Shown here one piece after another: positions 1 through 44,000 of a DNA stretch of 64,000 bases. Location of the stretch: the NCBI RefSeq assembly GCF_001484045.1, contig NZ_CP013128.1:68783-132782 (forward strand). The letters run 5' to 3'. Under the pieces are notes generated by a model. The model saw only the letters and a list, made by a program, of their open reading frames with translations, made no database searches and was not told the origin of the DNA. Numbering within the stretch: the stretch's first letter is position 1; each line of letters begins with the position of its first letter. The translations under genes were made by a program, and so were the position numbers. Origin of the DNA: Mycoplasma sp. (ex Biomphalaria glabrata) (lineage in GTDB: Bacteria; Bacillota_I; Bacilli_A; Mycoplasmatales; GCF-1484045).

Positions 1-3000
1 TTAATAGAAGCAGGAGGAAGTGTTTGTATATGCGCAAGCATGTTTGCTTTTAGGTCAGCAAGAGATAACATTGAAGTTCCTTGGGGACCAAATCAAGTAG
101 TTAAATTATTTAAATCATTACCGATTGCGTAACCATAATAATTATCAAAATAATTTTGCAAAATTGTGTCTATTGTGTTAGCTTTTTGTGTTTCAGATCA
201 AATCTTATAATTTAATAGTTCACCAAGAGGTTCAACTACATCACCATTTTTTGAAAATAAACTTTTCAAATAAGAAGAAACAGTTGAATAATCTTTACCA
301 TCATTTATAATGATATCACTTTGAAGTAATTGTGTTTTGAACAAATTATATAATTCATCAACTGTTCCTGGTAAATCATTTGTAAAATTTCCATCATGAT
401 TAAAAAATAGCGCAATATGTTTAGCCCCCGCAAAAACTTCTGTTCCTGATGAAAAATCAATTTCATATCCAAAATAGAAGTTTTTTAATAGCGACAAAAT
501 ATTAATTAAATCTAGCTTTGCCGATTCAATTTGTTTACCCATAAAGACATTTAAATCTCCATCAATAATCCCTTTTAAATATGTATAAATATGGTAAGCA
601 TTTTCTTCGCCATCTCGAGTTTCAGATTGAATAATTTTATCTATCGCATCATTACTAGATAAAGGTGTTTTCTCATCATTTTGAAAAAATCCATCTAGAA
701 TCGATTTTGGAACATCACTACTTCCGTAACCTCAATAACTAGTAATGATATCATTGATAATAGTATTTACATTATCTTCTAATTTATTGTTTTGTTCATC
801 AATGAAATCATTCATATCTTGGGATGCGATTTCATCTAAATTTGAAAATCACTTGTTTAGTTCATACTGTAATGGAAAATTATCGATTCCTTGTTTTGCA
901 ACTACATTCCCTTTAAAATTAGTAAATAAAGTGCTAATATCTAACTTTTCGCCATCTGTTACACCACTTAAAATTGTTTTTGTGATTAATGAGGTGGTTT
1001 CGGATATATATCCATAATAATTTCTTTGAATTTTATTTAAAACAGATGTTCAAATAGTTTGTAAGTTATCATTTTGATCTTTTATAAAATCTTTTATTGC
1101 TTGAGAATCTTCAGTTATTTGTCCAATAAAAGTTTTAACTTCTCATTGCCCGGCTATGTTTATATCATTTGTTAGAAAATTGTTTTTAAAATATTCCAAT
1201 AAAGTACTTGCATCTAATTCTTCATCCAAATTTTGTCCAGCTAAAAAATACTTGTATATATAATTATCAGTCATTGTTTCTGTTGCTGAGAAACCATATC
1301 AAGAATTGGAAATTAAATTAACAATTTTCTCAAAATCGTTATTTAATTGAATGCTTTGATCAAAAATAAAATTTTCAACATCGCCACCGTTAGCTGTTAA
1401 ATTATCTATAAATTGAGATGTAAGATATTTTTCAGGGTATCCAGGTAAGCGATTTTCTATCGAATCCTTAAATTTTTGCAACATTACCGATTTATCGATT
1501 TGCGAACCAAAAACGTGCCCTTCAAAAAGTGTTTTAGCAAAAAAATTATTTGACAAGGAAGATGAAGGATTATAACCAAAATAACCTCAAATTAAATTAG
1601 ATATTATTGTCCCAACAAAAGTATTAAAATGTGCCACTTGATCGTTTGCAAGTTCTTTCCCTTGGTCTATTATTTGTGATAAAAATGATGCTGTTGCATG
1701 CATTACTGGAAAATCAGTCTTTTTAGCAACAACTTCGGCTTTAAAATTAAGAACTAATTTTGCAATGTCAATCGATGTATTTGGAGAATGACCAGCTAGA
1801 ATAAACTTTAAAATAACATTATTAGATAGCGAATCTGAAAAAGCAAAACCATAATATTCTGAAATAATTGGAGTCAAAATTCTAGTAAATTCAAGAGTAA
1901 TATTACTATTTTGGTTATCTTTAAATTTTTGTATTTCTTGTTCGTTGATTGCTTCCAAAAGTGCTTGGATTTGATGTAATGAAGTAATTCCTGTCGGTAA
2001 ACTAGATTTATTAATTGTAGAAATAATATTTGATGATGATAATTCTAAATTTTCAGAATAGTTAGTTAGTAATTCGTCTATTTTACTAATTGTCCCAGTT
2101 TCTCCTGATTTCGAAATTCAACCATAGTAATCATTTTTTACTTGACTAACAATCGATTCAATCTTATTTGTCAATTGAGTTAATTGATCATCCTTTCATG
2201 TGACAAAATTTTCATTATCTTCTTTTTTAAATTGTTCTAAAAACGTTTTTGTTGCTCAAATTCCAGGAAAATCTGATTCACTTAATGGCGGATTATCTTT
2301 AAAATTTTGAATTAAAATCGTTGCACTCATTTGATCACCGATATTTAAATTTCCAAGTATATCATTAGTTAGTTTATTTTGAATTGAACTTTTAAATCCG
2401 TAATAATACTGCTCTAAAAAACTAACTATTGTTTCAAAATCGCTTTGTAGTGATGTATATTGTAGTTTTGCAAAATCTGAAAAATGTTGATTTCTAGAAA
2501 CAGAATATTTTGTTTCACTAGCAATTCACGTATAAAACGAATTAAAATAGTTGTAAAAAGATGCATCATGACTAAATTTTGCAATAAACTCGCTTCTCGT
2601 AATAATTTCAGAACTTCCTCTAAAAAATTGACTAACATCATATGTACTTTGTGTAGCTGAATCAGGATAACCTAAAAAATTCTGTTTCAAGAAAGTATCA
2701 TAAAAGTCATCGACAACTGCATCAAATGAAAGCGTATTTATACCTTTAAAATGTTCAAATTCCGTTGTGTAATCAAAGGTAAAATTTTCATTTTTAGCAT
2801 CTTTCCCAGCTCAACTTGAAACATCCATGCTATTTCATGTTCTTGCATTATACAAAAAGTTAAATACTGTTGTTTGATCGTATTTTGATTGTTTCATAAT
2901 TTCGATTCAAGAAGATATCAGTTTATCAACATTATCAAAATTGTTACGGTTTGTTTGGTCTATAAATAAATTTCAATACTCGTCAAATTGTGCATTTGTA

Positions 3001-5120
3001 TCTTTAAAACCATAATAAAATGTGCTAAATTCATTCTTGATTTTTTGATAGTATCAACTTAATTGATTTTTACCCCAGTCACGATATTCATTAAGTGTAT
3101 TTTCAATATCACTACTAGGTGCTGGATTTAAATATTTTTCTAAAAATCTCGTTGGAGTTCCTGATCTCAATTCATTTCTTCATTCATCAATCGCTTTTTG
3201 TAGTCCTTGTAGCGGATTTGTAACATCATTGTCGTCTAATACATAAAATAAACCATTACTTCCTGATAATATGTATGCTGGAAACATGTTTTTTAAATTA
3301 TTTTCGTTATATCAACCTCATTGATGACCGGTTGTAGTTTCCTCTATTGTAGAAATTCACTTCACATAAGTATCAGCAATAATTTTTTTAGCAGCATATT
3401 TTTGAATAGAAATAAAATTATTTATAGTTGTGAAATATTCTTGAATGTCAACACTCTCTGGTAAATTACTTTTTGCAGCACTCTCTAATTCTAAAATTGT
3501 CATTGGCGCAAAAGTATAATCTCCTTTTTTGCCAATTCATTCAGCTACTTTTTCAATAGATGTTTTTTGTTCAGTGGTTGCATCATTATTGTATACATCC
3601 GTCAAATCAATAAAAAATAAATTTTGAGTTAAAAAAGAAGAAAACTTATCTAAAATAGCTGCCTGAAAGGTTTGAAATCGCTCTTGTTTAAAATTATCTA
3701 AATTGTGACTATTAACAACCATCTCAACACCAGTTGTTACTACGTAATTTAATTTTCAATTAGTAAATTGATTTGATTTTTTAAATAGATATCCTTCAGT
3801 ATTTCAATTGTAATAAGATAAATTAGTAACGTCTTTATTTACAACATTAAAAGCGAAGTAATTTGTTCTGTTTGGTAGTTGAGAGGCTGAAAATGCATCG
3901 TCTTTTTTTATGCCATTTGGAATCATGTAGTATGTTTCATTGAAACCTCTAAAAAAATTCAAAGTAACATTAACTCCGCCATAAAAATCAAATTGTGGAT
4001 TGTCTTTTGGAAATTTTAAAACGTTCGAAATAGTTGCATTGTTATCGCTGTCTACAAAACCGATTTGCAATTTAGCATCATCTCCGCCATCATCACCTAA
4101 ATTCACAAAAACTAGACCATCTGTGGTTTTAAATAATCAATAACCGCGGGCATAAGGTAGTGGTTCAAAATCAACTTTAATCGGTTTAATATCTCCTTTA
4201 TCAAATAAATTTGTTCATCCTAATAATGGATATTCTTTCCCGCCTTTATTAAGGTACTCATGTTTCGGAGTGGCAAAACCATCACCAAAAACTAAATCCC
4301 TTGTTCCCGGATATCAACCTGGTTCAGATGAAGAAACATTTACATTATTAATTTCCGTTTTATGTCAAAATTGATTTAAAACGTCAAAGTTTGTCAATTC
4401 TCAAACGCGAAGATTAGCGTTATTATCATCAAGATAATCAAAAACACTTAAATAAACTTTCAAATTATCACCAGGAATAGTTGTTAAATGAATATTTCTA
4501 AAATTTGCAGTGCTGATCCCTCCTAGAGCATCATTAAGATTAAAAGTGGAAAAACTTCCACTTTTTATATTGGTAACACCAACAGTTCACTCACCAGTAC
4601 CATATTGATGATCAGTATTTCATAATCTAGAAAAAGTGATTAAATTTTCTCCAATAATATGAGGTTTCAATAAAACACTTTCGCTAACATCATAACCAAG
4701 ATTAATTTTTTCACTAATCAATGTTAAAACTTTTGTTTCTCGATTAATAGAATAAGATGTAAAAGTATTATAATGTGCTTTGCTTGTTGCAATGTTTCAA
4801 TAAGGAACAATTAAATAATCTTCATTTTGAACACTAGTATAACCAGCATTATCATAAGTGGTTTCTGATGGATTATCGAAATTACTTTTAACATGACCAA
4901 TAAATGGGTTGGTGTCATAATGCGTAATTGGATTTTGACCAGTTACATAATCATAACTACCTCCGGAAGATGTTGGACTCAATAAATTAGAATTAAATTT
5001 TTGAGAAAAATAATTTTCTTTTTCATCAGAAGTTGAAGGTGTATTTGCATTCCCGATCGGTTCTAAAGCGGAAGTTGTTATAGTCGATAATAGTGTTAAT
5101 AATTTTAATTTTTTATTCAT
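1..5120 (-). CDS. Giant YYGY-repeat surface protein A (C-terminus outside window)
   Basis: Function unknown; no named family recognised. One frame stays open from the ATG at 5120 to the left edge (at least 1706 codons) with TGA read as Trp. The first 20 residues have a KK start and a hydrophobic stretch ending in ALEPIG, which looks like an export signal without a lipobox Cys. The N-terminal region carries the family blocks NPFIGHV, LIVPYW, an FGDGFATPKHEY-like block, YYMIPNGIKKDD and FFIDLTDVYNN. A repeat array follows. YYGY-type motifs lie near + positions 3010, 2669, 2398, 2115, 1851, 1578, 1288, 1010, 728, 469 and 134, so modules are about 90-110 aa. A GAGGA ribosome site lies 5 nt before the ATG. 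By comparison with B, D, E and F, the missing part should hold a C-terminal domain and membrane anchor. Inferred role: exported, membrane-tethered surface protein. Confidence 0.88.
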
Positions 5121-5218
5121 AAAATCCTCACTTGATATATGTAATTTACATTAAAATTAAACAAAAATGTGAGTATACACTTTATTTTTTTAAGATAAGC
5201 CTTTATATATCTACATTA

Positions 5219-5227
5219 ATTATAGCA
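5219..5227 (-). promoter_or_regulatory. Extended -10 promoter of giant gene A
   Basis: The minus strand reads TGCTATAAT, a perfect TATAAT with an upstream TG. It lies 98 nt before the ATG of gene A, and no TTGACA-like -35 is evident. The same block, within an AT-rich context ending AATTG, precedes the other giant genes. Confidence 0.7.
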
Positions 5228-5251
5228 ATTCAATAATTCTAATACTTATAA

Positions 5252-5277
5252 CAAAAAAAATAACGCTTAGCGTTATT
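5252..5277 (-). terminator. Intrinsic terminator after giant gene B
   Basis: AATAACGCT and AGCGTTATT form a 9-bp inverted repeat with a one-base centre (about 7-8 bp of usable stem). A run of U follows on the minus strand, just after the stop of gene B. A-runs and T-runs on both sides could let it work in both directions, but gene A is transcribed away from it. Confidence 0.75.
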
Positions 5278-5287
5278 TTTATATTCA

Positions 5288-13123: not shown

Positions 13124-13225
13124 TTAATTCCTATTCTAATTCGCTAAATAATTTTCTTATGTTCAACTATCGTTAATTACACAAAAATGACAAATATTTT
13201 AGCTTTTTATTTACATATATTTATA

Positions 13226-13234
13226 ATTATAGCA
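13226..13234 (-). promoter_or_regulatory. Extended -10 promoter of giant gene B
   Basis: The minus strand reads TGCTATAAT, 102 nt upstream of the gene B ATG. The upstream context, AAGTATTA then AT-rich sequence then CAATTG, closely matches the promoter of gene A. Confidence 0.7.
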
Positions 13235-13288
13235 ATTGTAATTTTTAATACTTTTTTTAAACAAAAATACTTTATTTTCTATTATTAT

Positions 13289-17149: not shown

Positions 17150-17231
17150 CAAAACCTCCGTTTTTTAAATTTATAATTTAGATAAAATTAGTAAATTATG
17201 CTGCAAAATATCAATTTTTCCCTATAAGATT

Positions 17232-17240
17232 ATTATAACA
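17232..17240 (-). promoter_or_regulatory. Extended -10 promoter of gene C
   Basis: The minus strand reads TGTTATAAT, 82 nt upstream of the ATG. It sits after an AT-rich block ending CAATTG, as in gene B. Confidence 0.65.
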
Positions 17241-25201: not shown

Positions 25202-25504
25202 TCCTTATAAATTTTACGATTAGAAAATATCCAATACTTTTGATAATCCTAATTCATACCATTATTATAGCAATTCAATTTTTAATATCACTTTTAAAGA
25301 ATTATAATATTCTTATTAATTTATTTTTTAAATTTAATGACTACATAATTATTTTTCTCATTAGAAAATTGTTTTAAATTTTACAATTATTTATGCAATA
25401 TTGATTGATAATAATGAGTAATTAAAATAATCACATAATTTCGTGTGAGAATATAAGTAATTTAATATGTTAAAGTTTTTTGAATCTAGTTCCTAATTTT
25501 ACGA
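25202..25504. other. Spacer between giant genes D and E
   Basis: About 300 bp, extremely AT-rich. It holds the promoter of gene D (25264-25272). I see no further coding potential, no convincing hairpin terminator for gene E, and no clear remnant of the neighbouring families. Confidence 0.6.
25264..25272 (-). promoter_or_regulatory. Extended -10 promoter of giant gene D
   Basis: The minus strand reads TGCTATAAT, 74 nt upstream of the TTG start. The preceding context, TTAAAAATTGAAT, is shared in form with genes E and F. Confidence 0.7.
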
Positions 25505-28500
25505 TTATTTTTTAAAAACGTGAGTATTTTTAGAAGCCTTTTTTTTGCGTATTAATATAATTGCTAACGGTATACCTAAAACAGTTAAAACTGATATAGA
25601 AATAATTGCTGCTAGTAATCACGTTGGCATTCCTGTACTATCTTCAACAAATGGAGCTGGTAATCGTTGGAGAATTTCATTTAATGAAAAGGTTTTATTA
25701 ATTAGATTAGCATTACTAATACTAATATTAGAACGGGTTTCAAATTTTGTTGCAATATCATTACCTACCCCGATTTGAATAAAAGCATTTCGATAAGTTT
25801 GGATAACATGATGTACACTACCAACCGTTTCAATTGTATTAGTCGTACCTAGTTCATTTTTTAATAGGGAAAATTCATTAGCATTTGGTGATTCTGCTCC
25901 ATAGCTAAATGTGTCTTTATTATATGAGATAACTGAAACTGAATTTTCAGTAAAATCTACGTTATCGAAATTTTCAGTTACTGTGATTTTTTGAGCTAAT
26001 TCATACGCTGGTAAACCTCATGTTGTATCAGCGACTGTGAATAATAATTGGTCGTATGGTGAAGTATCCACGGAAGAAGGAATCATTTTATATGTAACTT
26101 GCTTACTTCCTTGCGTGATGACAACTGTTGTTCCATAATTCATACTACCATCTTGAGAATTTGGAGAAATAACTATCGAATCTGGAATCCCCTGCATAAT
26201 ATATTCACCATTATTTAAATTAACTATAGCGATTGATAAATTGGTTGGATCTGCCGGGTCATAAAAAACTTGTAACGGCATTCCATATTGACCAAAAAAC
26301 ATAAAACTATGTTTTAATGAAGTGTTAGTTCAATCAGCATCTTCATCACCTTCAAAACCTGAATATCAATTTGAAGAAATATTATTTAAATCAGCTAAGG
26401 ATGTTGGTTCATTATTAGGATTTAAAAATGGAGATAAAGCATCGTGTGCTGATTTTGAATCACCATAATTGCCACGATAATTTACAATTGTATTTCAACT
26501 CAGATCTGTTTCTTCATCCGATAGCATATCAATAATATCAATTCAACGTTCAAAACCGGGATGAATTATTGGAATATCCTTACTAAAAATATCTCTTTGC
26601 TCATTTTCATAATTTTGAACATTATCATCAAATTTCTTTCAAGCATCATAACTTAAACGATAGTTAGCAGAAGAATCAGGAGTTGTCATTTGATTATAAG
26701 TTTTACTGTCAAAAAAATTAATCGCAAAATTTAAATCTATTTCAGCGCCATTTTGCCCAATTTTTCAACCGGGTAAATTTAAATATTTAAGCGGTTCGCC
26801 TTCGAATGTTGCAAAATAACCTTCAGTAGCGGTAGCATATTTAGTACTCAATGAATCTAAATAATTATAAAAGATGCTAGTTTGTTCATCTTTAAAAGCG
26901 GTAATGTTTTTAGTATATTCTTCAATAACATTTACTTGTCATGTAGGATTAGCATTAGCATTACGTAAACTTGTAATATAAGTTTTTAAAGCGTCTTTGT
27001 TAAATATTTCAGATGTAACGTCAGTTGATGTGCGAATAAAAACACCATTTTCTAAAGTGTTATCCCCACCTAAAGTTTTAAATGTTAATCTATTACCATT
27101 TACATTATTTACAAATCCACGAAAAACCTTTTTATACTCAGAAATAATTTTATTTATATCATCTTCAAAAGCAGCTTCTTCAACAGATTTTAAATTATCC
27201 GTTCCATAATTAACTTTTGTAGCAAGAATGCCTAGAATGTTGTTGTGTAATCATTTACCGTTTATTAAACGATTAGCATCTTGAAATCCATTACCATCAT
27301 TAGTTAAAGATGTTAATGTATCATTTAAATTTCAATTCAAATGACCATTACCTGCTGGGCTTATTCCAGGTAAGTATGTTGAATTAATTACAGATTCACT
27401 TGTATAACCCATATAGTTATTACGGTATGCTGTAATTAAAGTTGTAATTTCATTTGTTAATGATAATATTTGATAATTAACAAATTCAGCACCAATTCCG
27501 TTCGCTAAATCCATGTGATCATCTAAAATATTTTTAAATGTTTTACCATTTTTTAAATTATTTTCATGATCTAAATTTATGTCATTAAAAATTTTGTATG
27601 TTGATGCTGTATTGTTTGCTCATACGTCGTTATTTCAAGTAGTAGTATCTCAAATAGCATTCAATTCACTAGAATTTTGTCAATTTAAGATTTTTTTGAC
27701 ATTATTTGGAATATCCGCTCCAAAATTATATCCGAAGTAATTATTTTTAATAAAATTGCCAATAAAATTATCATTGATGTCATTTACAAGAGATGTCATT
27801 TGCTCTTTAAAAAAACCAATTTGCTTGCTGTTTGTATCATATGTATTTTTAACATATTGGTATTCTCAATTTTGAGTATCTTTTGTTTTTGAGATTATGT
27901 TTGTGATTTTACTTATTACATTATTGTAATTTCAACCAACCGTAATAACATCTTCGATTGTTTCTAATGCATATGCGGTAGATATTGAATATCCCATATA
28001 ATTCTTGTTATAAGAATCAATGATAGGTTGTAATAATTTTAATAATTCAGTGTTTTGATATGATTTGAACGCAGTTAAAGCTATTTCATCGTTTTTAAAA
28101 TAATTTAAAAAATCCTTCATTAATTTATTCTTTGCTACAGCTGCTAATTGAATAGTCGAAATGTCATTACGATTTGTTATATCTACTCAATTATAACTAG
28201 AGGAAGAATAAGTATATTGAAATCAATTCCCTATGTAACCCTCTGCTCCATAGTAATTATCACGTCATAATTGATTGATCAAATTTATCTCATCCATTGC
28301 ACTTTTAAAATCTCTTCCAAGAATTGAATCTTCCGTTTGTAAATCCGTTCCTAATAATTGAGAAAATTGCTTCATTGCACTTTTATATTCGATTTGATTT
28401 AGAGAAATAAAATGGTCATGAAAATTTGACTTTAATTGTTCAAGAGCTAAATATGATGTTCCCAAAGTACCAAACCATAAATTTAGTGTTGTTGCGTCAT

Positions 28501-31500
28501 TTCCTATTGCATAGCCATAATAATTATTTAAATAAATTTTAGCTATTGAATCTATATCTTCCGCTAGTTTTTGTTCTGATCATTTTTGATAATTCAGTAA
28601 CTCCAAAATAGGTTCGTATTTTCCTGAATTATTTGAGTATAAACTTTTTAAATAAGTTGACACACCTGTATAATCTTTACCATCATTTTTTACTAAATCA
28701 CTACCAATAATTTTTAATCTAAAATTGTTAAATAAACCTTCATATGTATCTGCAATACCATTTGTCATATTTCCGTTACTCATCAAGAATAAAGCTATAT
28801 TTTTAGCACCGACAAATGGCTCTGAACCACTAAAATCATAATCATAACCATAATAATATTTATTAAAAATATCTAATATAATCATTAAATCTTGCTTTGC
28901 TGCATTCATTTGAGTATTTAAAAAATTGTTTAGATCATCATTCAATTTACCTGTGTTCAAATAAGCGCGAATTTGATAAAGTGATTGCGCATAATCTCTT
29001 ACAAGATTATCTTTAATTTCTGATACATCTAAGGCAGTTTTTTGATCAAAAGAAAAAAATACATCTAAAAGTGATGACGGGATTGATAATCCACCATAAC
29101 CTCAATAACTACTATATATTTCATCAATAATTCTTTTTATATCATCAAACAACAATTTTGGTTGATTTGTTGCTCAATCATCAAATTGAGTAGTGCGAGA
29201 AAATGTATATTTATCGGTACTTGGTGTTCAATTATAAAATTTACTTAAGTAAGTGTATCCTTTTGATGTCGAAGGAGAAAATGTACTAATAAAATCATTC
29301 TTTGAAATGATTTCTGGTAATCCTCCAGTAAATAATGAAAAATATGGACTAACATCTAATTTGTTTGTTGCACTAGGATCATCATAACCGAAATATTGAG
29401 TTTTCAAGAACGATTCATATAAATTATCTGAAGCATCATTAAATGTATTAACATTTATATCTTTAAATTTTTGTAATTCTGGAGTATATTCGAAAAGAAA
29501 TTGTTGAATAACAGCATCTTTCCCACCAATTCTGTCAACAGTTAGATTGTTTCATATTTTAGAATTTGTTAAAAATTTTAAAACTGTAGTGTTATTAAAT
29601 GAAGAATTAGATAAAATTTTTATTCACTTTGTAACCATATCGTCGATATTTGTTAATGTATTACGCGTCTCATCTTCTAAGAAATAGTTTCAATATGTAT
29701 TATTTGATGAATTCATATCTAAAAATCCATAATAAAAAGTAGCAAATTCTTGAGTAATTTTTTGATGATATCATTCTAATTGGTTTTTACCATATGATTG
29801 ATATTCATAAAAAGTTAATTCAATATCACTTCCAGCTTGTTGATTTAAATATCCATTAATTAAACTGTCAAATTTAATTGGTGTATTGTCTTGCATACCT
29901 GTTTTAAATTTATCGATTAATTTTTGCAACCCTTCCTTCGGATTATTTAAATCTAAATCTGTATTGTCATATGTCAAACCATTAGTTGAATCTAAAACAT
30001 ATGCAGGAAACATATAATCTAATTTTTTTTCGTTATATCATCCCCATTGATGAAATTTTCCTTCTAGTGTTTCTTCGATGGTAATTGTTCATTTATCGAA
30101 AGCCGCTTTTAATGATGTTTGAATAGAAGATGTTTGTGCACTAGTAAAATTAGTTGTAACTTCGTCAACCTCAGCTTGAGAAGTTTCTTGAGGGAAACTA
30201 GCTAAAACTGAAGTTTTTATGTTATTAATTGTCATAGCCTGGAAAGAATAATCTTTATCTTGACCCAATCAAAGTGCTACTTTCTCGATAGCAAATTTTT
30301 GTTCTTGCGTTGCAGATGTTGCATAGAAACTAGTTAAATCAACAAAATATAGGTTTTCCACTAAAAAGTTAATAAAATTATCCATTACAGATAAAAATGA
30401 TGTTCTATAATGTTTATTTGTTATTGTTTTAGATGCTAAACGGATATCGTTGGCTATAATATCGGCTCCGGATGAGGTAATATAATTAATACGTGAACTA
30501 GTAAAAATATTGCTTCTAATAAATATATTATTAGCAACGTTATAATCATAAGCATTTAAATTATTAACTACCCCTTTTTCAATTTTAAAAGCAAAATAAT
30601 GCGACCCATTAAGTAATGAACCCATATCAGGCGTATTACCGTCTATTCCGCTTGGAAATAGATAATAAGTATTATCGTTCCCTCTAAAAAAAGAAAATGT
30701 GATTGCCGTTCCTTGATAGAAATCAAAATTAGAATCTGATGCTTGAAAAGAATAATTTGCAGTAGGTGTCGCTTTATTTTCAGAATCAACCAAACCAATT
30801 TGTAGATTTGCTTTACCACCATCATCGTTACCTAAATTAACAAAAATTAAACCTGAATTTGTAGAAAATAATCAATATCCACGGGCATTTTTGTATACTT
30901 GATAGTTTACAATAATTGGTTTGGCTTCATTTTTAACAAATAAATTATTTCAACCGAACAAAGGGCGATCAGCTGTTGCTTCCTTTTGGTAACCATGTTT
31001 TGGAACAGCATAACCATTACCAAAGGTAACATCAAAAGTACCAGGGTATAAACCATTAGTTCCTACTATTTCCATATCATTAGTTAATTCCAAATTGTAT
31101 GTTTGATTACGAGGGTTGAAAGAATTTAATTTCGATACAATAATTCGTCCACTAGTTCCAGTGTAGTTATATCGTGCTAAATAATATACAACATTTAACG
31201 GATCTGAATTATCAGTCATAATGTAAACACTTCTGTTATTAGCTGTACTCTCCCCTATCGCAGTTTTTAATGAATATGTAACATAATCACCAGTTTTCAC
31301 ATTAGTAACTCCAACATTTCATTCTCCTATTCCGTACGGACTAGTTTTATCTACTGCTCGGAAAAATGTAACAAAATCGTCTCCCACTAATTGTGGATAT
31401 AAAACAACTTTATTATCAACATCATAACCTAAATTTACTTTGTTATTTAAAACGCTTAATTGTTTAGTAATGGGATCAATAGCATATGTAGCAAAAGAGT

Positions 31501-31849
31501 CAAAATGAGGTTTTTTAATCACTGCAGTTCAATATGGTACAATCAAGTAATTTTTATTTTGAATAGACGTAAAAGTTCCGTTTTCATAAGCAATATTACT
31601 TTTATCATCAAAATTGTTTGGGACATAACCAATAAAAGGATTATCATTAACGTTTGATATGTAATCTTCTCCAGATATTGAGTCGTACCCTCCACCCACT
31701 TGTTCTGTTAATTTTGATTTATTATTTCTCGTGTTTTGTTTTTTATTTTCAGTATTAATATTTTGCACTTCTGTTAATTGACTAACAGGCTCGATAGCCG
31801 TTGTTGTAATTGTTGAAAAAAGCGTTAATAATTTTAATTTTTTATTCAA
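25505..31849 (-). CDS. Giant YYGY-repeat surface protein E
   Basis: A 2114-aa family member. It probably starts with TTG at 31849, after GGGTGG with a 4-nt gap; no ATG fits the conserved start LKLLTLFSTITTTAIEPVS. The N-terminal region has NPFIGYVP, LIVPYW, FGNGYAVPKHGY, YYLFPSGIDGN, YFVDLTSFYA and FPAYVLDSTNGLTYDN. The YYGY modules include KYYYGYDYDFSG (near 28850), which lies in a block about 93% identical to one in gene F. The C-terminal domain begins MFFGQYGMPLQVFYDP (26302). A helix at about residues 2077-2098 is followed by IRKKKASKNTHVFKK and the stop. Compared with B, D and F, the module array is shorter. Function unknown; surface-exposed membrane-anchored protein inferred. Confidence 0.9.
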
Positions 31850-31924
31850 GATACCACCCGATTTTCTTATATATTTATTTTGATTCTTACATAAAAAACT
31901 ATTAATATATGAATCCGTATAATT

Positions 31925-31933
31925 ATTATATCA
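31925..31933 (-). promoter_or_regulatory. Extended -10 promoter of giant gene E
   Basis: The minus strand reads TGATATAAT, 75 nt before the TTG start. AAATTTGAAT precedes it, as in gene D. Confidence 0.65.
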
Positions 31934-31994
31934 ATTCAAATTTTTAAAATTTTTTTTAAGAAAAAAAATAGTATGTAAAGTGTTTTTTACTAAA

Positions 31995-32023
31995 TTGGAA
32001 AAAATATAAAAAAAAACTATACT
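31995..32023 (+). promoter_or_regulatory. Probable leaderless promoter of the 4-helix membrane protein gene
   Basis: TTGGAA (31995-32000), a 17-bp spacer and TATACT (32018-32023) lie only 9 nt before the ATG at 32033. Transcription should begin at or next to the start codon. No Shine-Dalgarno sequence is present. Confidence 0.5.
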
Positions 32024-32032
32024 AATATGGTT

Positions 32033-32722
32033 ATGGAAAAACGACTACTTACCAAATTCAAAAAACAAATTGAAGAAATTTCTTTTATTTGAAAAGATAA
32101 ATGTCAAAAAGAATCAAGAGATTTATTTTGAGGTTCAATCACAATGTTGTTTTTAACGGGTGGATGTTTTTTTACATTTTATACACTTATCGATATTTCA
32201 TATAACTTAATGGATGGTGTTTATTTTGAATTATTTTTAATAGAGGCTGTTTTTACTGGTTTAATAATTAGTTGCTTAATAATTATAAGTTACAGATATA
32301 AAAACATTGGTAAATTTGGAAAAATTGAATCATCATACTGAATATATGGAATATTTTGAACAATATTTGCATTATTTATACTATTCAATATTTCTGATTT
32401 TTATTTTATTAATCAAGTGATAAATAATGATAAAGAAAATGCTGATTATTTTTTTATGCCGTCAGTTATTGCTTTATATGCAGATGCGTTTTATGTATTG
32501 AAAGGGATTATTGTTTTAATTTGTTTAATTTTGTTATTTAAAGGCGTTACTTTAAATCTAAAATTAAGTGATATTAAAAAAACAATATGATTATCATACA
32601 AAAGTGGTTATAAATTTATTGATTTTCAATTAATCCAAGAATTAAAAAATATGTCAAAAAATGATCGTGAATTTATGATTTTATGAAAAAAGAAAATTCG
32701 TGATTTTCAAAATAACAATTAA
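32033..32722 (+). CDS. Four-helix integral membrane protein, unknown function
   Basis: A 229-aa protein, the only plus-strand gene inside the accessory region. A basic N-terminus (MEKRLLTKFKKQ) leads to four predicted membrane segments at about residues 35-58, 64-88, 104-127 and 143-172. A basic C-terminal segment ends DFQNNN. Several TGA codons are read as Trp. An alternative ATG two codons upstream (32027) is possible. No family motif was recognised. The gene is divergent from giant gene E and convergent with the next gene; the two stop codons overlap in the shared TTAA at 32719-32722. Codon use and AT content look like the surroundings. Confidence 0.8.
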
Positions 32723-34467
32723 GAAAGATCTTGTCTTCTATTTGAATGAATAATTTCTTCGCCTTTGTTAATGTGAGTATTAGATTTTTTTATTGTTTTT
32801 GATTTTTTAGAGTGTGTTCTTCTAAATAAGAAAAAAGCACCTACCCCAAATATAACTAAAGCTGTTGGGACACTAATTAATGTAATGTACAATGCAGTTT
32901 TATTATCGTCACCAGGTAAACTATTTGGTAAATAATTTTTTATTGCTGCAATCATTTTATCAGCATCATTAGTTGTCATCACTTCATTCATTGATGAATT
33001 AGATGAGAAAGCGGCGTAATCTTGTGTAAACAATCCTAAATCAAAAAATTGATTTACAGTTAATTCTACTTTGTTTTTTTCAACTTGATCTTTTATATCA
33101 TTAATCACAAATTTATTTATGTTATTCTCAACAACTTTATATCCATTAGTAACTGTGTTACATATATTTAAAATATTTGTGTAAATATCATTATATGAAT
33201 TGGCATTGTTAATAGTACTAATCGAATTTCTAATATTATCTGAAACAGCATTATAATCTTTATTACTAAAAGGATTATCAATTTTTGGGGATGTTGCGTC
33301 ATATATTTTTTGCAACATATTGATGTTAAGAGAATTGTTTATTCCAACAATCTCCGCTCCAGTTTTATCCTGAAATTTTCCAGAAGTTAAAATTAGGGCA
33401 AAAATTTGATCAATTTTTTGTGCAGGACTTAATGATTCATTAGAAAAAATTTGACCTTCCGGTAGGTAAGCGTTATCGCTACCAATAAATGATTGTTCTT
33501 GCGTACCAAAAGCGTTATTAAAAATATTAGTAATTGGGGTTCTTTCGGTCCCTTGTTTTAAATTACTACCAATGTATGTAAAAGTTGGAATAAAGTTTTC
33601 AATAGATGTTGCGGATTCATAATCTTTAGTAGCTAATTCTGGTGTATATTGATTCGGGTCAACTTTTGAAGCTTCAGTGTTTGGAATCAAATATTTAAAG
33701 TATGGACCAACATTATCATATCCGGGAGTTAGCAAACCTGTAACCATTGCCAGTATAGAACCTAGTGAACTAATTTTGGGTAATAATTTTAAAACAATAG
33801 AAATATCGACTTTTGTCGATAGTTCAAATTCAGCCATTAGAAATGGCGCAGCTTTTAATGGTGAAGATGTAAGATCATTTGTTGCAGCATAAAAAACATT
33901 TAGAATATCTACCAAGAATTGATCAATTGTATATGTTTGACCTGTTTTGATAGTTGGCATATAAATTTGATTTAATCAAGGGTATTCTTTAAAACTATTA
34001 GTTCAAGTAGGATAAACATCAGTAATTAATCTCATGCTACTAACATCTATGTTATCTTTCAATCGAGTTGTTGAATTAATTAAGCTCTGATTTGTGCCTT
34101 GATAGTTTAAAGTTTCATTTCATAAACTTGTTCATACTTTTTTAAAATCAACACCGCTAGTGTAATAAGTCTTAGTGTTATCTAACTGATCACTATAAAA
34201 TTGATCTAATCCACCCTTATAAGTTCCACCGCTATCTGGTAAGTTTACAAGGTTATTAAATGTTTGCGAAAAACCGATCAAACCAGCTGAAATCATGAAT
34301 AGTGCATTATCATTAAGATTAGTTGCTTTGAAATTATCATTTTTTAATTTTGATGATGATAATGTTAATAAGTTATTATTATTTGTTTTTGATAATTCAA
34401 CAATTGATGGTGTTAACGTTGAAGTTAACAAACCAAGAACTGCTAGTTTTTTAATATTTTTTTTCAT
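32719..34467 (-). CDS. Single-anchor surface protein, 582 aa (paralogue of the protein at 44968-46725)
   Basis: The signal-like start KKNIKKLAVLGLLTSTLTPS lacks a lipobox Cys. The ectodomain contains QYTPELATKDYE, IFNNAFGTQEQS and EIVGINNSLNINMLQKIYD, which align with YTPEMAMTDYQ, LFNNAFVQEESS and LVGINQALNVDLIQRMYD of the 585-aa paralogue. One helix at about residues 522-545 (ITLISVPTALVIFGVGAFF) precedes a basic tail. I see no Shine-Dalgarno sequence close to the ATG. It is separated from giant gene F by a decayed copy of its own family's 3' end. Function unknown; a surface protein anchored by its C-terminus is inferred. Confidence 0.85.
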
Positions 34468-34554
34468 ACAAAATAATTTTACATCAATGATTTTTTATTT
34501 CAAAATTACAAAATAAAAGTATTAAAAAAATATTAAAGTCTATTTTGTGTTATC

Positions 34555-34745
34555 AATTAAAGAATTTCGCATTTATTACTAACTAAATTTTAGTTTGTGT
34601 GATTTTTGTTTTACAGTGTGTTAAAGTGTTTTCTTCTTAATTTAACTAATTGAAATACTCCTGTTACAATCAAAGGAATTTCTAATTCAAGAGTAACTAA
34701 TAGTTCCGCAATTAATGGGATATTAATTTCAGAAATAATAAAAAT
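34555..34745 (-). pseudogene. Decayed 3' end of a 580-aa-type surface protein gene
   Basis: The stretch aligns base by base, with small indels, to the 3' end of the 585-aa gene at 44965-45150. Shared strings include aattaaagaatt, gtttgwgtraytttTGTTTTAC and cacaattaatgggatatt versus gcaattaatgggatatt. The frame is broken and no start remains. The adjoining spacer toward 34468 also matches the spacer at 44905-44965. Confidence 0.75.
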
Positions 34746-34799
34746 TAATTTACATCAATTTCTACAATAACTTAATTTTCTGGGGATAATAATTGCTAT

Positions 34800-37700
34800 C
34801 TATTGATGTTTGCTTTTTTTATTTTTTAGTAGATTTTTTTTTCTTAACATGAAAAACGCTAACGGAATTCCGACAACTACAATTATTGAAATAGAAACAA
34901 TTATTGCTAATAATCATGCTGGTAAACCTGATGAATCTTTGCTTGGGGTTGGTGGAGTTGGTAAATCATGAATAACATCATTTAACGGAATAATTTTGTT
35001 ATTTAAACTTGCATTGCTAACACTAACATTTGCACGGTTTTCTAATTCTGACACAGCATCATTTCCAACGGCTATTTGAACGAATGTGTTACGGTGAGTT
35101 CTAGTAGCATGATGAATGACATTCACTGATTTAATCGTGTTACTTGCGTTATATTCACTTTTTAGTAAATTTTCTTCCTCAATAGAGAATGATTCATTTG
35201 AATAACTAAAAGTTGCTGTATCATAATCAATAATTGAAACTGTACTTTCGGTAGTGTTAACATCATCATTATTTTGAGTTATTGTAATTTTTTGCGCTAA
35301 ACTATATTCTATTTTTTCGTTTGTTGTATCGGCAACTGTAAATAATAATTGATCATATGGTGAGTCATTATTTGCCGGTATCACTTTATAAGTAACTTGT
35401 TTTTTCCCTTGAGTGATTACTAAAGTTTCTTCGTAATTCATATCGCCATCTTTGGAATTTGGCGAAAATATCATCGAATCAGGAACTCCTTTTATAATGT
35501 ACTCACCAGTATTAGCATCAATAACAGCAATTGAAAAAACATTTGGATTAGCTGGATCATAAAACACTTCTAGTGGTAAACCATATTGACCAAAAAACAT
35601 AAAACTATGTTTTAATGATGTATTATTTCAATCATCATTTTCCCCACCCTCAAAACTAGAGTATCAATTAGAGGAAATATTATTCAAATCAGCCAAGGAT
35701 GTAGTTTCTTTTTTTTGATTTAGAAATAAATCTAACGCTTTTTTAGCTTCTTCTGGATCTTTATAATTACCACGATAATTTGCGGTTTGATTTCATGTAG
35801 GAAATGTTTCTACATTAGCTAAAAAATCAAATATTTGTGTTTTTCGTTTGAAACCTTGATGATTAACAGGAATATTCTCATTTGCAATACTATTTTGTTC
35901 ATTAGCATAATTTTGAAGATTATCATTAAATAATTTTATTGCATCATAACTTAAACGGTATTTTGCAGATTTATCTGGATTTTTCATTTGATTATAAGTT
36001 TGGACATCGAAGAAATCAATTGCTAAATTTAAATCAATTTCCGCTTTATCAATACCATATTTTCAACCAGGTAAGTTACTATATTTTAATGATTCAGATT
36101 TTAATGTAGTGTAGTACCCTTTTGATACAGCAAAATATTCATTAGATAAAGAGGTTAAATAATTAGAAAAAATAGCATTTTGTTCATTCTTAAAATTATC
36201 TTTATTTTTATCATATTCAGCAATAATGTTCGATTCTCACAGTATATTTTCCCCTGAAGCTAAATGAACATCTTTAACATATTTTTTAAAAGCATCACTA
36301 TTAAAAATGTCAGCAGAAACATTCGTAGAATCTGAAATAAAAACACCATTTTTTATTGCATCATCTCCGCCAAGAGTTTTAAATGTCAACTTATTCCCGT
36401 TAACATCATTAAAAAATCCACGAAACGTTTTTTTATACTCAGAGACAATTTTTATTACATCTGCATCAAATGCTGCATCTTCAATAGATTTTAAATTATC
36501 ATCACCTGATGTTGCTTTTTTTGCAAGTAAATCTAGTGCATTATTATGTATTCAATTTCCATTAACTAAACGATTAGAATCTTGAAAATTACCGCTAATT
36601 AATGACGAGATAGCATTATCTAAATTTCAATCGAAGTTTCCATTATTAGTTAAACTCATACCAGGTAAATATGACAAATTAATTGTAGATTCGTTTGTGT
36701 AACCCATATAAATACTGCGATAAGTAGCAATTAACGCTGTTACTTCGTTTTTTAATGATGAAATTTGATAATTGATAAATTCAGCACCAACACCATCAGT
36801 TGTACTAATATATGAATCAAGAAGGTTTTTAAAAGTTTTCCCAACTTTTAAATTATTTGTGTGATCTGAATTTATATCACTAAAAATTTTATAGGTTGAT
36901 GCATTAGTATTTTCTCAAGTGTTATTATTTCATGTAGTAGTATCTCAAATCGCATTTAATTCAGATGAATTTTGTCAACTAAGAATTTTTTTAATATTGT
37001 CAGATACATCCATATTAAAATTGTAACCATAATAATTATTTGCAATAAATTGACCAATAAAATCATCATTAATATGTTTAGTTAATGCATTCATTTGCTC
37101 ATCATAAAAACTTTGCTGTTTAATATTAGCATCATACGTGGTTTTAATATATTGGTATTCTCAACTATTAGTATCTTTTGTTTTTGAAATTATGCTTGTT
37201 ATTTTACTAATTACATCGTCATAACTTCAACCGTTTGTAATAATATTATTATTCGTTTCTAAAATATATGATTCAGAAATTGAATAACCCATATAATTTA
37301 AGTTATAAAAATCAATAATAGGTTGTAATAATTTTAATAATTCTGTATTTTGATATGATTTGAAGGCGATTAAAGCTGTTCCGTCATTTTTAAAAGAATT
37401 CAAAAAATCTTTTACAAATTTAGCGTCCGATAAAGCTGCCGTTTGAATTGTTAAAATGTCGATGCGATTTGTTATATCTGTTCAATTATGACTGGAAGAA
37501 GAATAAGTATATTGAAATCAATTTCTTCCTGTATAATCTTCTACTCCGTAATAATTATCACGTCATAATTGATTGATTAAATTTATATCACTCATTGCGC
37601 TTTTAAAATCTCTTCCAAGAATCGAATCTTCCGTTTGTAAATCTGTTCCTAATAATTGAGAAAATTCCTTGATCGCATTTTTATATTCAATTCGATTTAA

Positions 37701-40700
37701 AGAAATGAAATGATTATAAAAATTTGATTCTAATTGTTCAATTGTCAAATATGATGTTTCTGAAGTGCCAAATCACAAATTAAGTGTCGTTGCATCATTT
37801 CCTAGCGCATAACCATAATAATTATTCAAATAAATTCAGGATATTGAATATATATCTTCTTTTAATTTTTGTTCTGATCATTTTTGATAATTCAGTAACT
37901 CCGAAATCGGTTCGTATTTTCCAGAATTATTTGAGTACAAACTTTTTAAATAAGTTGATACACCTGTGTAATCTTTACCATCATTTTTTGCTAAATCACT
38001 ACCAATAATTTTTAATCTAAAATTGTTAAATAAATCTTCATATGTATTTGGAATACCGTTTGTCATATTTCCGTTACTTATAAGGAATAAAGCTATGTTT
38101 TTGGCACCAACAAATGGTTCTTGGCCGCTAAAATCATAATCATAACCATAATAATATTTATTAAAAATATCTAATATGATTATTAAATCTTGTTTTGCCG
38201 CATTCATTTGAGTATTTAAAAAATCATTTAGGTCATCATTAAATTTACCTGTATTTAGATAGCTAAAAATTTGATATTTTTTATCTGCTAAAATTTTAAA
38301 AATATTGTCTTTAATTTTTGATTCTTCTAAAACCGTTACCTTATCTGTATCAAAAAATAAATCTAAAATTGATGACGGGATCGATAATTCTCCATAACCT
38401 CAATAACTACTATATATTGTATTAACTATTTTATTAATGTTGTTATATAAAAATTGTTCTTGGTTTTTTTCTCATTCTAGAAAATGAATTGTACGAAATA
38501 CAGAATATTCTTTGCCTATTAGTCTTCAGTTGTAAAATTTGTTTAAGTTAGCATAACCATTCATCGGTTGTGCTAAAAAAGTACTAATAATATCATCTTT
38601 AGAAAGAATTTCCGGCAATCCTTCACTAGACAATGTAAAGTAAGAACTTACATCTAATTTATCTGACAAACTTAGATCATCATATCCAAAATATTGGCTT
38701 TTTAGGAAATTATCATAAAAATCATCTATAGTATGATCAAATATATCTCTATTAGATTTTATAAAATCTACCACGGAAGAACTTGTTTCGGTAATTCCAC
38801 CAAAAAAATTTTTAGTAGCTCATTTTCCAGGAAAGTTTTCATCATCTATTGGAAAATTAATAATAAAATTTTTTGCAATTAATGACGGTTCCAATTCTGT
38901 TCCTGTTTCAATAGGTATTTTATTAAAAAAGTATTTAGAAATTGTATTATCAGGAAAATAGGTAAATCCATAATACCCTTTTTTAATTCATGAGATTATA
39001 TCACTAACTTGATTGGTTAGTGAATTTACTTGATCCTCTTTAAAACTATTAATAGCATCAATATCATTTATAACAGATAGTAAGTAATAATTTACTTGAA
39101 ATGGTAAAGGAAAATTCGCAATTCCAGAATTTACGCCTTCAACAAAATTTTTTCTAATGTCGGAAAAAGATAATTGTTCACCTGTGAGTGTGTAATTTCA
39201 TAATATTACACTAACAATTCTATTGTTTATTAAAGATTCTGAAGGGGCATAACCGAAATAACCATCGCTAATTGCATTCATCACATCTTTTATACTCAGA
39301 TCTAATGAATTATTTTGGTTATTAACAAAATTATCGATATCATCAGAATCTATTTTTTCAATAAATTCTTTTATTTGGTAAGTATATGAAATACCTTCCG
39401 GTAAAGTTGTTTCATCAAAAAAAGATGCAAAAATAGAACCAACAAAATTATTCGATTTAAAATAGACCGGAAATAATAGTTTATCAATGGAAGTAACAAC
39501 ATTACCACCATAATCATAATTAGTAACTCAACCGTAATATTTCCCTTTTTTATTTATTTGGGAAATAAGATTATCTATCGCAATCGCCAATTGCGTTTTT
39601 TGATCATTTTTTCAGTCAACAAGATCTGAATAATCTGGATTTTTTAAGAAATCAAACAAATCTTTTGTCTTAGCAAGACTAGTAAAAAAATTATCTAATT
39701 TTGATAATGATTCATTATAAAAGTAATCAGTTAGGCTTGATGCATCTAATGATTGATCAGATTTCAGATTTGAAAATAAGTATTTTGATAATATATTTTG
39801 AGATTGAAATGTATAACCATAATAAGAATTACTAATTCTACTAATCAAATCTTCAAAATCTTTTTTCAAGGAATCTTTTTGAAATTTAACAAATTCTAGA
39901 AATTCTGTTTTACGAAGATCAATAAATCAAGGAAGTCCTCCATCATCAGGGAGAATAAACTTATCAGTAAAAGGAAAAATATCGTAATAATTATCATTAA
40001 AGAATTTAAAGAATGCAATAGAACCATCGAACGGAAATAATTCCAAAAATTTTTCTTTCGAAATTAATTTTTTTTCATGATCAAAAAAACGTTCAAAATT
40101 AAATTTTGGATCAAAATCATCACTAAAGTATCCAAAATATTCTTTAGATAAAAAATTGTCGTAAAAATCTTCAACAAATAATTTATACATTGATACATTT
40201 TCACTAATGATTGCTTGAACATCAGCGCTATCCTGTGAATATTCATTATCAAATCATTGTGCGAATTGATAGGGGCTTCCAGCTTTAAATAAAAAGTATT
40301 TATCTCTAGTATAAGGTGCATCTGAATCACGCATAATGAATTCAGCAGCCATATCTCTTGCATTTAATGCAATAGTTCCGTCAGGATGTTTTGGATCTCA
40401 CCACACTATCTTTGCATCCATTCCTTCTGTCGGAGTAGTATTTAAACCAAATATATACCTTGAAACTTTATTATGGCCGCTAACTCGAAAAAAACCTATA
40501 AAGGTTGGTCTAATTCAACTAAGTATTTCCTCAAATCTATTCACTAATAGTTCAAATTGAATATTTTTGAATTTTAAAAATTCCTCAGAATCTTTGGCAA
40601 CTAATGATAAAAGATCCTTTACTTCCGCGGTTTTGTATCCTTGAACATTTACTAATGCTTCATCTAAACTTTCTAACATAGTGTCAGATGTAATTTTGGC

Positions 40701-43700
40701 ATATTTTTGATGGTTAAAAAGGAGAAATTTTCCAATTACATCATTATTTGCTCCAGAATATCCAGTATATCCATAATAAACACCATCTAAAAGATTCACA
40801 ATTCTATCTATTTCTGAATTTTTGTGAACCACTTGATTGTCTAAAAATTCATTAATTTCATCACTAGTCACGGTCTCTAAAAAATTATATAATTGATATG
40901 AATTGTCGACGCCAGTTGGTAAACCTTTAGTTAAAATAGAATCAACAATATCATTAGCTATGAAATCTGTTGTTTCTGGATAATTAATTAAAAGTTTGTC
41001 TAAATTTGTAAAATAAAATCCATCTTCTTCTTTTCTTGCAAGTCAGCCATAATATTTTTTTTCGTTACTATTAATTAAATTAATTATTTCATCTATTCTA
41101 TTTGTTAGACTACTCTTTTGGTCATTAATTCAATTATTAATTTCATTTGTATCATTTTTTAACGATGACATTGTTGAATTTATTAGATTTAATTTATTTA
41201 AATTTGCCATGTGTTCGTAAAAATTTTCGTATATTTTATCTAATTCAAAATTTTTACCCGGTTCCAAACTATATAATAAATTCGTAGTTATTATATTATC
41301 CTTTAAAGAATCGAAACCATAATATGAATTTTTTAATAAATTAATGATCTCACTAATATCAGAAATTAACGAATTTTTTTGATATAAAACTCCATTATTG
41401 AATCATTCAGTTCTCTCTAGGTTGTACTTTTTAACACCAGGTTTTCAATTATAATAATTACTTAAATTTCTATAAGTTTCACCTTTATGTGGAAATAAAT
41501 TGATAAATTCATCTTCAGTAATTATTGTTAATGCTGGTTCAAGGAAATAACGATTAGAATCAAACGAAAAATTCGGATCAATATATCCAAAATATTGCGT
41601 TTTTAAGAACGAAGAATAAAAATCATTTGTAAAATCCGAGAAAGAATTTATATTAATATCTTTAAAATCTTGAAATTCCGTTGTATATGAAAATTCGTAT
41701 TTTTCAGCGTTTGCATCCTTGCCAGCAATTTCATCTACTGCAAGACCATTTCATACTTTTGAGGCAATTAAAAATTCGACCACTGTATGATTGTCTCATG
41801 AAGAATCTTGCATAACATATTTTCATCTTTCAACAAGTTTATCAGGAGATTCTATCGGATCATAAAGTGTTTGATCTAAATAATAATTTCAAAATACATT
41901 ATTATTAGAACTTTGATCTGGAAAACCATAGTAAAAAGTAGAAAATTGCAGTAAAATTTCTTGACTATAATAATCAAATTGTTTTTTACCAATTGATTTA
42001 TAATTATTAAATGCTATTTCAATATCACTTCCTTGAACTGGATTCAAATATTTATCGATTAAATCAATCATTCTAATTGGATCAGTATTACCAAATCATG
42101 AATGAAATTCATTTATTAATCCTCTTAAATTATCTTTAGGATTTGCAAGATCAATATCACTTCTATCATATGTCAAACCATTTTCTCCAATAATATAAGT
42201 AGGAAACATGTTTTTTAAATCATTTTGATTATATCAACCTCATTGGTGGCCTAGCGGTGTTCCTTCAATTGTTGAAATTCATTTATCATAAGTTGATTGA
42301 ATAACTTCTTTCATTGCAGTTGCTTGAACATCTACAAAATCACTAATAATAGTATTAATTTCATCAGTAGTAATGCTTGTCGGTAAATAAATTCCTACAC
42401 TGTTATTAATATCAGATCATGACGTTGGAGTAAAAGTATAATCTCCTTCTTTACCGATTCATCTAGCTATTTTTTCAATTGCTTCTTTTTGAGAAGAAGT
42501 TGCTGATTTGTTATAAACTTCGGTTAAATCGACAAAAAATAAATTTTGCTGCAAAAAACGAAGAAATTCATCCTTAACCGGACTAACCGATCTACGGAAA
42601 TGTGTTTGTGTTATTGTTGTTGATAATTGAGTAGTCACTAAATCAATTCCTATTGTACTAATGTAGTTTATTCTTGTAGAAAGAAATTGTAAACCCTCAC
42701 TAAATAAATTATTTGCAATTTTATAGTCATATGAATTTAAATTAGTAACACCTTTGCTTTGAACATTAAAGGAAAAATATTTAGAACTAGTTGGTAATGA
42801 GGAAATGTTTGCGCTATCTGATTTTACTCCACTAGGAATTAAATAATAAACCTCATTATACCCTTTTGAAAAAGAAAATGTAATAGCAGTACCTTGATAA
42901 AAATCAAATTCTTGATCAGTTTTGGTAAAAGAAAATGTGGCGGTTGGTATTGCCTTATTATTTGCATCTACAATTCCCATCTGCAAATATGCTTCATCGC
43001 CCTTATTATCTCCCAAATTAGCAAACATTAATCCTTCTTTTATTTGAAACAATCAATAACCACGAATGTTAGCGTATGGTGAATAATCTATTATTATTGG
43101 TTTTACATCTCCAGCTTGAAATAAGTTATTTCACCCCAATAATAATTTTTCTTCGTCAGAATCGATATTATAGTCGCGTTTTGTTGTGGCAAAACCATTA
43201 CCAAACATGACATCATATATATTTGGATAAATAACATCGAAACTATTATGAGTTGTAAAATCATAAGTTTTTAAAGTTGGGTCGAAATTATTTAATTTCA
43301 AAACTACAATTTTTCCTTGACTTGTGTATTCATAAGCAGCTAGATAATAATTTGGAGATGTTGAATCAAAATTTTCTACCATTAATGAAACATTACGAAA
43401 ATTATTGGTACTAGTACTGATGGCTTCAGATAAAGAATAATTAGTAAATTCACCTGTTTTTATGTTAGTAACCCCTACATTTCATTCACCTTTACCATAT
43501 GGATTTTGTAAATCCACATCACGATAAAAAGTGACAAGCTGTTCACCAACAATTTGCGGAGGTAACATAATTTTATTAGTTACATCATAACCTAATTTGA
43601 TTTTGCTACTAATTACTGATAATTGTTGTGTATTTGAATCAATAGAATATGATGTAAATGAATCAAAATGAGGTCTTTTTATCGAAGCAGCTCAAAACGG

Positions 43701-44000
43701 TACAACTAGGTAATCTTTGTTTTTAATTGTTGTAAAAGAACCATTATCCAAACTAGATTCATTATTAAATGTAGTGGGAACATAACCTGTAGATCATGAT
43801 GGATTATCGCCAGTGATTGGTTTTTCTTTTTCTAATTCCACATAGAAATCGTTGTTTGTTCCTTGAAGAGAACTGTCAATTAGATTATTTTCATCCAAAC
43901 CATCTTTTGTAATTTGTGCATTTGCTAAATCACTAACCGGTTCCAATCCAGCCGTTGTTAATGTTGAAAAAATTGTTAATAATTTAATTTTATTATTCAA
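34800..44000 (-). CDS. Giant YYGY-repeat surface protein F (3066 aa)
   Basis: The longest family member. It starts with TTG 44000 behind GGGAGG (9-nt gap); no ATG fits LLTIFSTLTTAGLEPVSDLA. N-terminal blocks: FGNGFATTKRDY (about residue 270), YYLIPSGVKSD (about 385), FFVDLTEVYN (about 493) and an FPTYIIGENGL-like block (about 600). Around twenty YYGY/YFGY/YYGW modules follow from + 41931 down to about 36700, about 90-115 aa apart. An acidic Phe-rich segment (SDDFDPKFNFERFF) occurs near 40120. The C-terminal domain begins MFFGQYGLPLEVFYDP (35600). The helix is residues 3029-3051, then RKKNLLKNKKSKHQ and the stop. The 5' third is closest to gene D and the rest to gene E. Function unknown; exported, membrane-anchored giant surface protein inferred. 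Confidence 0.9.
37860..38210 (-). repeat. Near-identical module shared by giant genes E and F
   Basis: This 109-residue segment (37878-38207) differs from the corresponding one in gene E (28580-28906) at 8 residues by direct comparison. Both include KYYYGYDYDFSG and SDLxKNDGKDYTGVSTYLKS. Other family copies differ at roughly half the positions. This points to recent duplication or gene conversion. Confidence 0.8.

Follow-up and report, generated by a model that had tools for sequence, protein, structure and literature searches.

A lineage-specific family of giant modular proteins, candidate tethered surface adhesins, in Mycoplasma sp. (ex Biomphalaria glabrata)

Introduction

Gli349 of Mycoplasma mobile is a protein of ~3,000 amino acids (aa) composed of ~100-aa repeats, of which the motif YxxxxxGF is a feature, and it catches and pulls host glycans. 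The size, motif and synteny of Gli349 and Gli521 have been described (PMC7052211), and the anchor of Gli349 lies at the N-terminal end (PMC4937208). In the Hepatoplasmataceae (Ca. Hepatoplasma and Ca. Tyloplasma), three to four giant repetitive open reading frames (ORFs) form tandem clusters and are closest to paralogues of their own genome; the authors proposed host adhesion (PMC10928387). The modelled repeats of these ORFs were beta-sandwich or Ig-like, those of Ca. H. vulgare defied modelling by the authors, and a separate Hepatoplasma protein combined a beta-propeller with Ig-like domains (PMC10928387). An expanded surface family of BspA-like TpLRR proteins is encoded in the ~620-kb genome of Ca. 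Mycoplasma girerdii (PMC4206474). The subject of the present analysis is a tandem family of giant proteins encoded on a 64,000-nt stretch of contig NZ_CP013128.1 of Mycoplasma sp. (ex Biomphalaria glabrata). This stretch (hereafter the window) corresponds to C1:68783-132782 of a one-contig, 647,830-base assembly; positions without a contig prefix are window positions, and all translations used genetic code 4 (TGA=Trp).

The Hepatoplasmataceae clusters were the nearest reported precedent. Both are tandem giant repetitive ORFs in a small mollicute genome, nearest to their own paralogues. The repeats of the present family differ in being predicted as alpha-helical with a YYGY motif, and the propeller-like head lies in the same giant chain. 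Outside the head, a beta-rich domain is predicted only once, at the C terminus, whereas the modelled Hepatoplasmataceae repeats are themselves beta-sandwich or Ig-like. The cluster is also larger, counting seven long members and at least four short ones. The BspA-like TpLRR family is similarly expanded in a small mollicute genome and most of its members have a C-terminal membrane helix, but it carries LRR_5 repeats, which were not found in the present genome. Phase-variable Mycoplasma lipoproteins are marked by a lipobox cysteine and a simple-sequence or inversion switch; of these features, the lipobox and simple-sequence switches were looked for in the present family and were not found.

Results

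Long paralogues in the window and in the wider locus

Six long minus-strand frames of 1287-3066 aa lay between positions 3 and 44000. These were P1 (34800-44000; a full-length paralogue of 3066 aa with a TTG start), P2 (25505-31849; about 2114 aa, in a frame spanning 25505-31939 with the true start probably at 31849), P3 (17291-25201; 2636 aa), P4 (13289-17152; 1287 aa), P5 (5288-13123; 2611 aa), and P6 (3-5120; the N-terminal 1706 aa, open at the window edge). In total, the six frames contained 234 in-frame TGA codons, 51 of them in P1, and many of these were Trp positions invariant among the paralogues. Under the standard code (code 11) the frames shattered into pieces of 339 aa or less. At 27.8% GC, the probability of a chance open frame was ~1e-95 for 3066 codons and ~1e-40 for 1286 codons; chance origin of the long frames is excluded. 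Paralogue identity was about 33-67% across roughly 800-3,100 aa, and the ratio of nonsynonymous to synonymous substitution rates (dN/dS) among the copies was 0.2-0.6, placing them under purifying selection.

A preliminary description of the window had reported six giant minus-strand paralogues filling almost 39 kb, with a signal segment, module arrays and a C-terminal domain plus anchor. On the strength of the TGA codons, the long open frames and the dN/dS values the genes are real, none of the six frames is broken by an in-frame stop under code 4, and all of the named parts were present in alignments and hydropathy profiles. The large coverage was also borne out, although the figure is 40.4 kb and other ORFs lie between the paralogues. 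Overall, that description was right but understated, as the locus continues outside the window.

The whole family locus spanned C1:25936-112782, and every match to the P4 protein in the genome fell inside it. The long members were, in order, gB (C1:25936-35136, 3066 aa), P6, P5, P4, P3, P2, and P1; with the short members, the family comprised ~66 kb or 10.2% of the genome. The short members (1130-1137 aa, at C1:45-62 kb) consisted of the post-head segment and about six modules, with neither head nor anchor, and four of them were partly near-identical (91-94% DNA identity). One short paralogue (C1:53418-56828) was frameshifted into 750- and 353-aa frames, representing either a pseudogene or an assembly error.

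Runs of NNNNN at C1:65383-65387 and C1:68778-68782 bracketed a 3.4-kb piece derived from repeats of the family. Its two flanking sequences overlapped exactly over 165 bases, the simplest reading of which is that the piece is misplaced and that P6 is one continuous gene; P6 would then probably encode about 2,678 aa, with the remainder in C1:62301-65382. The truncation of P6 at the window edge arose because the window starts right after the NNNNN scaffold joint. The assembly yielded no 16S gene and is therefore probably metagenome-derived; assembly detail in the repeat-rich C1:45-68 kb is not trustworthy. The ParE gene had distant relatives only, the best being Spiroplasma at 47-49%, and identity with Ca. 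M. girerdii was not supported, as the genome showed no LRR_5 repeats.

Domain architecture

Six long members shared a common plan: signal segment, N-terminal beta domain (the head), helical modules (the stalk), C-terminal beta-rich domain, membrane helix, and basic tail. P4 was the long member that kept the anchor and had no head. The signal segment had the consensus MNKKxKLLTxFSTxTTxxLEPIS. None of the N termini contained a lipobox, and cysteine was nearly absent from the family proteins. In P1, hydropathy placed the membrane helix at aa 3030-3048 (34857-34913), and the 18-aa tail behind it held 7 K/R and no D/E. Across the family, the tails after the single membrane helix were 14-95 residues long with 6-39 K/R and 0-2 D/E; the 95-residue tail with 39 K/R belonged to P4. 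Signal segment, C-terminal membrane helix and basic tail together predict an orientation with the head outside and the tail inside.

Structure models were built from 7-9 sequences. The P3 head (aa 99-432; 23906-24907) was modelled as a beta-rich domain of about 21 strands with pLDDT (predicted model confidence) mostly 70-90. The corresponding P1 domain (aa ~95-430; 42711-43718) was assigned by alignment with P3. Fold matches of the head model in the PDB were mostly beta-propellers, many at a probability near 1, and included coronin, XusB, GH43, integrin alpha, sortilin, and a viral attachment head. On this basis the head likely belongs to a beta-propeller-like fold class. A viral fold search gave generic matches only. 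Nuclear-pore entries were also found in the fold search (E about 5e-5 to 2e-3). The domain order of the family, a propeller followed by stacked helices, is that of Nup155/Nup170-type nucleoporins; the likeness ends there, as there is no sequence relation, the root-mean-square deviation (rmsd) was above 30, at which superposition is meaningless, and the cellular place is another one.

Head and stalk were separated by a helical stretch of about 250-350 aa. Stalk modules were ~92-100 aa long, each with a long helix at its end followed by Y-[YF]-G-[YFW]. The P1 stalk (aa 690-2529; 36414-41933) was delimited with a module hidden Markov model (HMM), the alignment and a four-module model of P3, and the P3 stalk (aa 815-2065; 19007-22759) with the HMM and the model. 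In the four-module model, short helices were followed by one helix of 26-28 residues per module, spaced by ~93 residues and stopping just before the motif. The wider pattern [YFW][YFWLMS]G[YFW] occurred 74 times in the six proteins, against 4.5 expected from shuffles. Altogether, 88 modules in ten frames scored at least 14 bits, and the nearest relative lay in the same gene for only nine of them, all in gB, where a block of three modules was duplicated at 70-73% identity. The modules are thus position-specific types. The P2 stalk was without module block B-E, present in others, and this absence accounts for much of the difference in length. The C-terminal beta-rich domain of P1 (aa ~2779-2996; 35013-35666) came from a low-confidence model, with pLDDT about 50-76 in most strands, and a fold search with the C-terminal model returned nothing usable.

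Search for relatives

Searches of Pfam, NCBIfam and PDB sequences gave no credible match to the family, in agreement with the preliminary description, which had recognized no named family. An InlJ_IG match (E 0.0044, in one of nine sequences) and Fab matches were taken as chance. Across 320 genomes of the order, a set in which the presence of Hepatoplasmataceae is unconfirmed, profiles of the N-terminal part and of the C-terminal half matched the family's own genome only. Among 395 genomes of the class the N-terminal profile found nothing credible; one match (E 0.0047, in genome G367) was rejected because its 58-aa frame contained a stop. Module-profile matches in 18 other genomes (E 1.5e-4 to 0.01) were likewise rejected as chance: they were single, mostly without the leading motif, several lay in stop-containing frames, and none lay in a motif-rich giant frame. 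A scan of the C-terminal alignment against ~85,000 species and viral contigs, of a kind that reaches close relatives only, was empty. From these empty profile and library searches the family appears, at the level of detectable similarity, to be lineage-specific and an orphan in the collections searched.

Promoter-like elements

Each of the seven long genes, and one of the short genes, was preceded at a distance of 43-102 nt by the extended -10 promoter-like element TGNTATAAT. The element occurred 21 times in 132.8 kb, counting both strands, and eight of these were the upstream sites. In the window, the elements were on the minus strand at 44080-44088 (P1), 31925-31933 (P2), 25264-25272 (P3), 17232-17240 (P4), 13226-13234 (P5), and 5219-5227 (P6). 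Terminator-like hairpins were found 3' of several family genes. Within 250 nt upstream of the genes, simple-sequence tracts did not exceed T9.

Discussion

Tethered adhesins as the favoured interpretation

The family is probably one of giant tethered surface adhesins. The signal segment would export each long member, and the single C-terminal membrane helix with its positive inner tail would hold it in place. The propeller-like head would then stand far from the cell at the tip of the helical-module stalk, itself carried on the membrane-proximal beta-rich domain. The head may bind a host-surface or matrix ligand, with the stalk setting the reach. With a promoter-like element for each long gene, several heads on stalks of different length could be shown at once, and variants could be generated when module blocks are duplicated or lost and when tandem paralogues recombine with one another. 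The short copies, having neither head nor anchor, may serve as secreted decoys or as a donor reservoir. The layout, and only the layout, matches that of a tethered adhesin (signal, head, repeat stalk, and membrane anchor). Because a minimal, probably host-dependent genome keeps several versions of this tethered layout, adhesins are the best explanation. Of the roles at the host interface suggested by the preliminary description (adhesion, immune evasion or motility), adhesion fits the anatomy best, and it is from the anatomy that binding, reach and the role of the short copies are inferred.

Several points weigh against adhesion. P4 and the short copies are headless, so the function cannot reside in the head alone. 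The head superposed poorly on its fold matches (rmsd 9-14, target template-modelling score 0.27-0.40), which supports a fold class rather than a blade number or an ancestry, and the C-terminal half was poorly modelled (pLDDT 48).

Recombination among paralogues and the antigenic-variation alternative

Identity between paralogues differed by domain. For gB and P6 it was 77% over the C-terminal domain against about 37% over the head; for P1 and P2 it was 81% over the first C-terminal modules against about 50% over the head. In approximately unbiased (AU) tests on the head data, the module and C-domain trees were rejected (p below 0.02), and in the reverse direction p was far lower. These discordant histories indicate that heads and stalks were reshuffled by recombination between paralogues, as reconstructed for long time scales only (37-81% identity).

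Such mosaic domains would also be expected under antigenic variation, with the long genes expressed and the short copies at C1:45-62 kb acting as a recombination reservoir under immune pressure. The partly near-identical short copies and the internal module duplications point the same way. This explanation is nevertheless unlikely: a separate promoter-like element precedes every long gene, with no simple-sequence switch within 250 nt, dN/dS was below 1 throughout, and recombination was seen on long time scales only. For immune evasion, one of the roles named in the preliminary description, there was no positive support in its classical phase-variable form, given the missing simple-sequence switches and lipobox.

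A further and more speculative arrangement is a heteromeric attachment or force-bearing appendage with propeller tips, assembled from anchored, headless and secreted members. Such an appendage, independent of Gli349- and P1-type systems and built on a helical module found nowhere else, is a doubtful proposition on present evidence. P4, with stalk and anchor and without a head, could also be taken to indicate that the family forms a structural coat or spacer, such as a palisade on the surface or a layer linking cells, in which the stalks matter and the heads are secondary, and the share of the genome given to the family (10%) would suit such a role. Six members have a conserved head, however, which a pure spacer would not need, and a coat is accordingly rather improbable.

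Comparison with gliding legs

That the family represents gliding legs like Gli349 is very unlikely. As in Gli349 of M. mobile and M. pulmonis, the proteins reach about 3,000 aa, have ~100-aa repeats and an aromatic-glycine motif, and are predicted to be surface exposed. A look-alike motif, Y-x5-G-[FYW], occurred 30 times against 5.8 expected; the strict YxxxxxGF occurred six times against 2.7 expected. Gli349 has features of its own that the family does not share: an N-terminal anchor, beta-rich repeats, an LRR-bearing foot, the partner Gli521, and a dedicated F1-like ATPase.

Counts of F1 genes across the order pointed to one genus (g32) with eight matches per genome, and Gli349 was searched for there. 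In genome G169 of this genus, a frame of 2634 aa carried 14 YxxxxxGF motifs and had an LRR-like C-terminal part, and a frame of 4279 aa came after it (C1:204441-226789 of that genome). By motif, size and synteny the two are probably Gli349 and Gli521. The putative Gli349 frame begins without an N-terminal anchor and may be split. Against this probable Gli349, the module HMM gave a best independent E-value of 0.33. The profile-profile probability between the family and the Gli349 repeats was 0.2-1%, compared with 99.7% for a control in which the family's own modules were split. The probable Gli349 repeats look beta-rich, whereas the family modules are predicted to be helical, and the topology is opposite, with an N-terminal anchor in Gli349 and a C-terminal anchor with a basic tail here. 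Extra F1-like (Type 2) ATPase genes were missing from the genome, in which one F1 alpha/beta pair exceeded the cut-off, and an MreB search of the genome returned DnaK cross-matches only. Membership in the Gli349 family was thus rejected by sequence, topology and F1 gene count, and with it the suggestion of M. mobile-type motility. A leg-like function without the Gli349 motor would be conceivable but had no support.

Nutrient capture or surface enzyme activity, in which the head would bind or cleave host or dietary glycans or siderophores, is the least probable role: the fold matches include GH43 enzymes, a putative neuraminidase and the siderophore-binding XusB, and ORFs at C1:1-3300 resemble, by eye, nagA, nagB and a sugar phosphotransferase system, but the propeller matches are generic, catalytic residues are unassignable, there is no family match, and an enzyme would not need so long a stalk.

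A 648-kb genome with no close relative in the searched set, where it is the only one of its genus and family, thus devotes about 10% of its length to one orphan family. Taken with the Hepatoplasmataceae and Gli349, this suggests that giant modular surface proteins have evolved repeatedly in wall-less bacteria, each time out of unrelated parts. The different module folds and the two opposite anchoring directions make convergent evolution of attachment directly testable, and the modules offer structural biology a new target.

Neighboring genes

No RNA families or tRNAs were found in the window. An unrelated, anchored 582-aa gene (32719-34467, minus strand) sat among the paralogues. Its product and that of a minus-strand 585-aa gene (44968-46725) look similar, flank P1, and each have a signal segment and a C-terminal anchor without a convincing family match; they are possibly partner surface proteins of the family. 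The only gene-like plus-strand ORF between the paralogues (32027-32722, 231 aa) had hydrophobic segments and no Pfam match.

Between the short paralogues outside the window, C1:56911-58608 (minus strand) encoded a 565-aa protein with hydrophobic N- and C-terminal segments. Remnants of the 3' end of this gene preceded the other short copies, and its anchor was fused to a module array in the probably misplaced 3.4-kb piece. Tandem small exported paralogues at C1:8434-12419 shared an N terminus like NKKSKxxVSLGxxVxLLAGLGVTLGETLTHKN; the two that were tested had no Pfam match. At C1:13687-19252, genes for a Z1-domain/MzaC-like protein and an HATPase_c_3 protein and a split GmrSD_N gene were found, and an adjoining ORF resembled, by eye, a PAPS-reductase/DndC-type protein. 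The C1:13687-19252 set is a probable MZA-like defence island.

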